A stretch of 64,000 nucleotides of DNA from Pegea sp. RAD2-039. Its lineage: Eukaryota; Chordata; Thaliacea; Salpida; Salpidae. The position numbers and the translations under genes are program-made. Where the stretch lies: assembly GCA_034620365.1 (NCBI GenBank), contig JAQGEQ010000010.1:62001-126000 (forward strand), given 5' to 3'. A model generated the notes under the pieces. The model had not been told where the DNA came from. It made no database searches and worked only from the letters and a program-made list of their open reading frames with translations. This document shows, piece after piece, positions 27,565 to 30,500 of this stretch. Numbering within the stretch: position 1 is the stretch's first letter; every line of letters starts with the position of its first letter.

Positions 27565-30500
27565 CTATATCTCTATACCTTCGCTACACTCATCAGAACT
27601 GACTTGACAACCTCTAATAAGCTGGTGGGCTGCAAACTTGACAGCATGATCTGTCAAATTATCTCTAGCTCAACTTCTAGACTTAAATTAAGAGACTTTT
27701 CACACATTACCTCTATCTTTCTGACACGGATGATAATAATTTGATGAAGAAGCTAAAATCGTCACTCACTTAACTTGTCTATCTATTTATCTCTTTGAAG
27801 TAATTATATTAATAACTTACCAAAAGTATCTTTAACAGTATTTGCTACCATCCCAGTTATTGCTTTAGCGTGCTCTGAGTTGACTGAAAAGTAAAAAATG
27901 CCAGCTAAAAAGTCTAACTGTAACTAAGCTTAATTAAAATTTATCGAGTTTTAAATGAATTTTAAGAGCTGCTACTAAAAATTGATCATTTGTTTGAAAC
28001 TGAGTACTTTTAAAGACCCTGAAGTTCTTATGAAGAGAGAGGAAATATCGGTGATTATATGACCATTATTTCACTAGTAAGGGTCTCTCTTTGAGTACCA
28101 GGTCTAGCAATTTAGGTAAGAGCGCTAGCATCTCTCATTAAGAAGATTCTGGTAACATCCGGGAGTTTTGAAGTCATTTTAAGTTTGGGTTCCACTATCA
28201 TGAGGTTATATAACCTTTCTGTACCTTTTTCGCGTTCTCATCTCCCCTGACTAGAAGAACTTCTCCCACTTTTGTATCTTGTAACACTAACTTAATTACT
28301 TGACTCGCCCATCAACTTGTCTTTCGAATATTTACATAGACAACTTACCGATAGTGTTCTGGACAGTAGAAGCCACCATTCCAGATATTGCTTTTGCTTG
28401 ATCTGAGTTGACTGAGAAGCAAAAATAAAGATTTAAGTAAATGTAAAAATAGCTGAGAAAATGTTAAAATGCTGTATAGCTTTAAAGCTGAAAATATTTG
28501 GATATATTTTTTAATCCGACTTTTGTAAATAACATTTGAACAAAGAAAATGAAAAACTGTTTGTATGACTGAATAAATGTTTAAAAATATTACCTCAAGT
28601 TTTTAGCAATCAAAAATTCAATACTTTTCGTTACAAAATATGTTTTTAAATATTTGAAATGATCGCTGGTTACTCAAATAATCTTACCTGCATCAGCAAC
28701 TTTATCTACAGAATTGCTGACAATTCCAAATACTTCATCTATCTTATTTTCATTTTTCAAAACCCAGGGTCTTATCAGTTTGTTGTAGATAAGTTTAGAT
28801 CCATTGCAAGATATTGGAGCCATACACCAAAGAAGAAATATGCACTGTTCAAACAATCCGATATTACAATATCAATAAAAAATACTTTACTTTTTGGAAA
28901 TACTTTTTGGAAATAAGTTTTGAAAATACGTTCATCTAGCTAATAATCAATTTTTAATGTACTCATTACGGTTTTGTTTTGTTATTAAGTTTAACCGATG
29001 ACTAGCCCAATAGACCACTAATTTCTATGAGTAACTGTTTACCATAAAACAAATTGTCACAAAACAAACTATTTTCATAAACAAATTCAATAATCTTGGG
29101 TAATTTAACTTTAGTAAAATTGTTAAAACACTTTTAGAGCTAAGCTTCTAAGCATTTACCAATATCAAAAGGTTAAAAAAACATAAACAAACTTTATAAT
29201 GTGAGTAACATATTATCAAAATGTAAAATCTTATAAATTAAAAACTAATTTTAGCTAAAATATGTTCACCAATATGAATAAAAAACTTGTGTTAACCTTG
29301 ATAAGGAAATAGAATGGAAACCAGGAAAGCAGAATATCAGAAAAGAATTCAACACAAGAGAAGCTTGAAAAAACCACCCAGTACATTAACCATTCAGTGT
29401 CATCATCTTTTTTTGTAGATTCAATAGCTTTAACCCTGTTAACACCAGACAGCCATCAAAATTTGTTATTGAGTTAAGCATCAAAAAGAAAAGAAACAAA
29501 AAGCATTCAAGCAAAATATGATGTGAAGAGCAATCTATTGTAATCATGCATGATATAACTCACGTTTTATAACAAGGGTAGACATAACCAATTATATTGC
29601 ACATAAGTGCTGCAATGCATGAAGATGACATCCATAATATTAAAATGCCAATGAATGCTTCATGTAAATAAAAATGAAAAATACATTCAATACATGCCAG
29701 ATTAAAAGTAAAATTAAAACAATATAAATAAAGTTGTTTTAGCATCAAAACAGTTTATAATCATGTCTATGTGCTTTTGATTATAAATTGAAAAATGTTC
29801 TGTAGAAAGAAAAGTTTGTTAATTATGGGCTGTAACATGCTTCAGTTTATGTGAGCACCACGACGCTACTACTCAGCAAGCATGTTACTCACGAATGGTA
29901 AGCTGGATAGATAAATCCTATGAAGCTACATAGGAGACTAGCAGCATATCCAAACACAAGATAAGCGGCCAAAAATGATATAATAACTGAAAAGAATTTA
30001 TATAGAGTGATTGAAATAAAATATAATAAAGGGGATCAAATAAGGAAATATAATAATAAGTTATACCCCTTCCTGAAAAACCTTTTGAAAATTTAAGGGC
30101 AATAAAAAATAAAACCTCACCAACTGCTCCTTGAAAACCTGTTATATTGTAACCAAATCTTTGAGCTATAAAGCTTTGTAAGCTGCTTAGTGAACTTGAA
30201 TTTTGATTTGAACAACTCTGAAAGTTGTATGATATTCTCTGATCTTTTCTAGAAGGCATTTCAACTTAAGACATAAAAATGAGCTTCTTTTTCATACTAC
30301 TAAACATATATATATACTTATCTGGCCTAAACTGACTTTCACAATAACTGAAAAAGACTTTTATGATTGTTAAAATGGATAGTAACATTCTCAAACTGAT
30401 TTTTTACATAATTTTTTATAGGTTGAAAACAATAGACTAAACAATAACTTTTGAAAACTTTACCATTTACACAAAGTTTAACTTTTTTGAAAAAAATGAT

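Follow-up and report, generated by a model that had tools for sequence, protein, structure and literature searches.

The REEP5/DP1/Yop1-type gene of the salp Pegea sp. RAD2-039 contains two adjacent and homologous exons for the first membrane hairpin of its product, named here exon 2a and exon 2b. Their sequence features make it probable that they descend from an old tandem exon duplication and are spliced alternatively, as mutually exclusive exons. The window in which they were analysed is a stretch of 64,000 nucleotides of contig JAQGEQ010000010.1. The gene spans 30958 to 27484 on the minus strand and has eight coding exons, seven of which contribute to any single product of 229 amino acids.

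Organisation of the gene and reading frames of the exon pair

The coding exons, and the three introns that surround the exon pair, were arranged as follows.

30826..30958, minus strand: exon 1, start codon and cytosolic N-terminus (44 residues), ending in phase 1; aligns with the N-terminus of human REEP5
30825-29987, minus strand: intron 1, 839 nt, GTAAGA...TTTTCAG
29893..29986, minus strand: exon 2a, 94 nt, TM1-TM2 hairpin, residues 45-76; 21/32 identical to human REEP5
29892-29658, minus strand: intron 2, between 2a and 2b, 235 nt, GTGAGT...ATGAAG
29564..29657, minus strand: exon 2b, 94 nt, alternative hairpin; 10/32 identical to 2a and 12/32 to human REEP5
29563-29436, minus strand: intron 3, 128 nt, GTGAGT...TAACAG
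29297..29435, minus strand: exon 3, encoding TM3 and the beginning of TM4 (VKAIES...FPFYFLIK), entered in phase 2, its first codon being completed by 2a or 2b
28688..28844, minus strand: exon 4, end of TM4 and the region of the amphipathic helix in REEPs, the helix being placed from the family alignment only
28349..28411, minus strand: exon 5, tail exon, 63 nt
27821..27883, minus strand: exon 6, 63 nt, repeating exon 5 in tandem with 47/63 nt identical
27484..27524, minus strand: coding end of exon 7, DSTLSSCSDKKSD, then TAG at 27486-27484, both assigned by eye

Exons 2a and 2b have GT-AG borders, and each starts in phase 1 and ends in phase 2. When either of them was spliced singly between exons 1 and 3, the reading frame was found open through exon 6 by computation, and exon 7 with its TAG was followed by eye. 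When both were joined, or both were skipped, the frame met stops, and in both kinds of transcript these stops precede several downstream junctions. A stop codon lying ahead of downstream exon junctions makes an RNA a target of nonsense-mediated decay, so the transcripts with both exons or with neither are predicted to be such targets. The pair shows several features of mutually exclusive exons, as the two exons are adjacent, homologous and equal in length and phase, and taking both in or leaving both out is unproductive by frame.

The coordinates, the lengths of 94 nt and the phases given for these exons in the preliminary description were all right when translations and splice borders were checked, and the frameshift it had claimed for including both or neither was borne out, with stops in both cases. 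Its statement that splicing must choose one exon went too far: the joined product is indeed unproductive, but frame incompatibility does no more than that. The sequence does lend good support to two homologous exons being used alternatively. According to extracts of a survey of human mutually exclusive exons, the frames were incompatible in 20 (71%) of 28 orthologous genes with validated pairs, and reads joining the exons were found for 18 of those 20 frame-incompatible clusters (PMC5740500). Inclusion of 2a together with 2b should therefore not be assumed absent.

A second tandem duplication was observed in the tail of the same gene. Exons 5 and 6 both encode VNS(D/E)..AKAI(S/T)GMVA.TV and, their length being divisible by three, one or both of them could be included with the frame kept.

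Homology of exon 2b to exon 2a and the hairpin that they encode

All AG-94nt-GT segments on either strand of the window were scored in the exon 2 phase. Out of 345 such segments 39 were open, and among these the BLOSUM score was 164 for 2a itself, 61 for 2b and -2 for the third. In a null set of 20 Mb simulated from the dinucleotide frequencies of the window, none of the 4219 open 94-nt segments reached 61 (maximum 25; z 7.3 for 2b). The window held no further exon 2 copy of exactly 94 nt beyond 2a and 2b, and the genome gave no other copies or retrocopies of either exon by protein or DNA search at the sensitivity used. The identity of the two exons by codon position was 15/31, 18/32 and 7/31, and its concentration in positions 1 and 2 (33/63 vs 7/31 in position 3, Fisher p = 0.005) argues that they diverged as coding sequence. 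On these comparisons exon 2b is evidently a real homologue of exon 2a.

The encoded segments share 10/32 residues. Exon 2b is identical to human REEP5 and REEP6 at 12/32 positions each, the corresponding values for 2a being 21/32 and 19/32. Since 2b is about as far from 2a as from the human proteins, either the duplication is old or 2b has evolved fast, 32 residues being too few to decide between them. Exon 2b retains G68, P72 and Y74, which are invariant across five aligned rows, and keeps the N65 of human REEP5, REEP6 and Yop1p, where 2a has S65; this set of residues speaks against a decayed copy. This bears on the reading of 2b as a relic or a poison exon, whose nonproductive inclusion would lower expression through nonsense-mediated decay. 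Such a role would agree with the frameshift upon double inclusion and with an AAG acceptor at 2b, but an old noncoding duplicate is unlikely to keep an open frame, both splice sites, the family residues and a low third-position identity, and we consider it quite improbable.

The similarity between 2a and 2b sits in the TM2 half, and their first 32 nt are identical at 9/32 positions, which is about chance level. Because that part is not recognisably similar, the upstream half of 2b rests on its exact length and its open hydrophobic frame. The mean Kyte-Doolittle value of the TM1 half was 2.17 for 2a and 1.89 for 2b, and the chance of finding an AG exactly 94 nt upstream together with 16 open codons was about 0.055 x 0.305 = 1.7%. 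A full-length 2b is thus likely but not certain on these figures, and a second acceptor is available within it.

29610..29611, minus strand: in-frame AG of a CAG inside exon 2b, possible alternative acceptor giving a 46-nt exon without TM1

If intron 2 ended at 29610, the 46-nt exon would be in frame and of the same phase class, and the product would be a three-TM, REEP1-like domain carrying a REEP5 N-terminus. The acceptor would be CAG and not AAG, and most of the recognisable homology between 2a and 2b lies downstream of it; in addition, Yop1p lacking the N-terminus and TM1 works, and REEP1 has three TMs, according to extracts of PMC10162974. Against this, it would have to be a coincidence, of about 1.7%, that an AG lies at precisely 94 nt and is followed by an open frame, and a hydrophilic N-terminus would have to adapt to an altered topology; use of 2b through this internal acceptor is considered unlikely. 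Exon 2b could also be an alternative first coding exon, with a transcript arising from intron 2 and translation from the Met at residue 54, aligned in length with the start of REEP1. There is no in-frame stop on this path, and the 29 residues from Met 54 to the end of the KAIES/KAVKS motif are as many as in human REEP1 (counted by hand). It nevertheless requires a promoter, leaves an acceptor at the exact homologous length unexplained, and would supply a form for which the genome already has a REEP1-4-like gene (C262, L002); we regard it as very improbable. The alternatively spliced tandem duplicate is the reading followed below.

The family assignment was obtained from PF03134, which matched the 2a form with 108.9 bits and the 2b form with 106.7 bits (cut-off 27.2). 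This match spans residues 72-149 and hardly covers exon 2, and as it starts only at residue 72 it backs the family and not exon 2. In an alignment with REEP5, REEP6 and Yop1p, the product has the N-terminal extension and TM1, unlike REEP1-4, and the identity of the 2a form was 48% with human REEP5, 41% with REEP6 and 31% with Yop1p. No solved structure was found with phmmer for the 2a form up to E 10. By alignment with Yop1p, exon 2 (residues 45-76) corresponds to TM1 and TM2, the first of two hairpins. The exon had been described as the curvature-forming hairpin; it does encode the TM1-TM2 hairpin, but this is one of two, and Yop1p lacking TM1 still works in the published extracts.

Extracts of two studies place a homodimer interface in TM2 (PMC10162974, PMC7835363). 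The TM1/2 hairpin of S. cerevisiae Yop1p has its bend at G56/G57; in TM2, crosslinks to the partner form through cysteines at the positions F65 and F68, and TM4 and some TM1 positions crosslink as well (PMC10162974). In the other study the photocrosslinks of TM2 were highest at 61, 65 and 69, position 65 being a conserved Phe (PMC7835363), and F65 of S. japonicus Yop1 has been equated with F68 of S. cerevisiae (PMC10162974). By alignment this published dimer face falls within exon 2, at mapped positions 65, 69 and 73, and all three residues differ between the forms (S65/F69/A73 in 2a vs N65/Y69/C73 in 2b). At the hairpin turn, 2a has G57-Y58 where 2b has S57-C58, and F65, the second contact of S. 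cerevisiae, corresponds to F66 in 2a and I66 in 2b. Three differences out of three are statistically unremarkable, because only 8 of the last 18 residues of exon 2 are identical between 2a and 2b. As Yop1p without the N-terminus and TM1 still maintains ER shape (PMC10162974, extracts), the exchange of exons would more likely tune dimerisation or oligomerisation than the curvature 'wedge'.

Splice sites and predicted RNA pairing

The acceptor of exon 2b is AAG and the other six acceptors of the gene are all CAG. Both 2a and 2b have the donor GTGAGT, which is found at none of the five other donors. The predicted pairing of the 2b acceptor (0.86-1.0 in three contexts) was the highest of the seven, the other six ranging from 0.43 to 0.78. 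Among the donors, that of the constitutive exon 3 was predicted to be paired at 0.91-0.92 and that of 2b at 0.86-0.87, so pairing alone does not mark the alternative sites. Two stems were located around the exon pair.

29832..29888, minus strand: stem at the 2a donor, perfect 11 bp, arms 29888-29878 and 29842-29832, starting from the fifth base of the intron at the 2a donor
29496..29665, minus strand: stem enclosing exon 2b, the 2b acceptor at 29665-29652 with intron 3 at 29509-29496, 9 bp perfect inside a 14-nt arm

The stem at the 2a donor sits in the lowest-energy 67-nt segments of the 687 scanned in the gene. When seven regions were folded, 29490-29670 was the lone standout (z -3.07, 1/200 shuffles as low). 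The 2a donor hairpin gave z -1.81 (9/200 shuffles as low) and 29436-29986 gave z -1.85 (6/200); the values were -1.49 for 29815-29900, -1.06 for intron 2, -0.59 for the end of intron 1 and 0.48 for intron 3. A match of at least 11 bp at any of the four splice sites occurred in 5/300 shuffles, and two matches of at least 9 bp at these sites in 8/300. The search for paired intronic sequences proposed in the preliminary description thus yielded stems at the 2a donor and the 2b acceptor, but with weak statistics, one of the seven regions standing out. Taken together, the AAG acceptor and the pairing predicted over it suggest regulation of exon 2b, short of proof.

Other arrangements for excluding one exon were considered. 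A repeated AAGCAT/ATGCTT docking set was dropped, as 83/500 shuffles equalled or exceeded it, and U12/U2 incompatibility was rejected because all three introns are GT-AG with U2-like donors, as judged by eye. Steric exclusion through a distant branch point was not supported by the AG positions in the 235-nt intron between 2a and 2b, where AGs end at 53, 63, 93, 119 and 126, leaving 109 nt without an AG ahead of the 2b acceptor. The lone yTnAy candidate predicted within about 50 nt of the 2a donor has its A at +41, and all five AGs follow it. One of the AGs in this intron resembles an acceptor.

29800..29801, minus strand: strong acceptor-like AG in the intron between 2a and 2b, with no 2a-homologous exon behind it

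The acceptor-like stretch at 29823-29800 on the minus strand, ATTAACAAACTTTTCTTTCTACAG, hits a stop when read on from exon 1 by eye, and it is either a decoy or due to chance.

The proposed sequence of events begins with a tandem duplication of the TM1-TM2 exon long ago, which would have given rise to 2a and 2b. Because 2b alone has an AAG acceptor, predicted to be more strongly paired than any other acceptor of the gene, 2a would be the default exon and 2b a conditional one, used once its weak and covered acceptor opens. Transcripts with both or neither would be removed by nonsense-mediated decay, the frame incompatibility serving as a safeguard. The main differences between the two resulting proteins would lie in the turn of the hairpin and the dimer face of TM2, and this would change subunit pairing and the strength of oligomerisation on ER tubules. 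Isoform-specific assembly of the 2a and 2b forms is a tentative suggestion. It is equally speculative that one gene makes two ER shapers, or three through the internal acceptor of 2b, by cassette exchange of hairpin, turn and TM2 homodimer face, with like subunits sorting into separate oligomers and splicing retuning the shape of ER tubules, a task for which vertebrates may use REEP5 and REEP6.

Genome context and comparison with known systems

At the sensitivity used, the assembly has one REEP5-type locus besides the single REEP1-4-like gene. Reticulon is represented by one locus, with two matches that lie within 1 kb of each other on a single contig; a similar exon doubling in reticulon was also considered, and no doubled hairpin exon was visible from these two matches. 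A pattern search for REEP relatives matched 166 stretches in the viral and 21 in the prokaryote collections, and none was confirmed.

Some other features were recorded. A SMAD-type gene with MH1 and MH2 domains lies on the plus strand at 54560-54955 and 55948-56550 (PF03165, PF03166), and these domains mark the window as animal DNA. COX1 gave no match in the assembly; Chitin_bind_4 gave none either, though its control matched nowhere. Pieces resembling fatty-acyl-CoA reductase lie on the plus strand at 36955-37317 and 38703-39167, with a weak Sterile match, below the cut-off, upstream of an NAD_binding_4 match. This is the reverse of the usual order, and the pieces are perhaps two neighbouring genes. 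Elsewhere in the assembly, L011 2250-3500, which lies close to the end of contig C1, was seen on comparison with L010 to be a diverged rRNA unit, whose SSU by eye lacks the 5' part and adjoins a ATCATCAACAAAATT tandem repeat; a fuller unit lies on C27. For 5.8S, five places were found in the assembly, with unequal scores.

If 2a and 2b are both used, the gene would provide a natural and exact exchange of the hairpin in which TM2 dimerisation was mapped, with the rest constant, and thereby a clean test of the hairpin against the amphipathic helix or the tail in ER curvature and oligomerisation. An ER-shaping protein would then join the genes diversified by duplicated exons. The identity of 2b to 2a (10/32) does not exceed its identity to human REEP5 (12/32), so the pair looks old and may exist, overlooked, in other animals.

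REEP5/REEP6 and Yop1p (TB2/DP1/HVA22, PF03134) share with the product described here the N-terminus, the TM1-TM2 and TM3-TM4 hairpins and the amphipathic region; they differ in that no second hairpin exon was found described for them. The preliminary description had known of no such case in the family. Searches of the open-access literature agree, having found no mutually exclusive or duplicated exons in REEP5/DP1, which cannot prove absence, and the term 'REEP' is absent from the main texts of both the human survey (PMC5740500) and a tandem-exon study (PMC9741552). In extracts of a review, the splice variation mentioned for REEPs is the retinal exon 5 of REEP6, through which a C-terminal amphipathic helix is added (PMC9437294).

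With regard to mechanism, the predicted pairings overlap the donor side of 2a and the acceptor of 2b, which is Dscam-like. Dscam-type exons are chosen through pairing of docking and selector RNA. The stems here, unlike those of Dscam, are local, have no competing selector set and show marginal statistics. The OGDH exons 4a/4b are alike in having one intron between two homologous exons, and in extracts of PMC7969005 they exclude each other through a distant branch point, the steric rule requiring that the branch point be no more than about 50 nt from the upstream donor. The intron between 2a and 2b differs from that of OGDH, since AGs occur across the first 126 of its 235 nt and its AG-free stretch is 109 nt. 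The closest likeness is with mutually exclusive tandem duplicated exons (PMC5740500, PMC9741552), which are likewise adjacent, of the same length and phase, homologous and frame-incompatible if joined, the pair here being predicted from genomic sequence. Duplicated mutually exclusive exons are an established class, and the unexpected point is their proposed occurrence in the REEP5/DP1 family, where alternative use of 2a and 2b appears probable.
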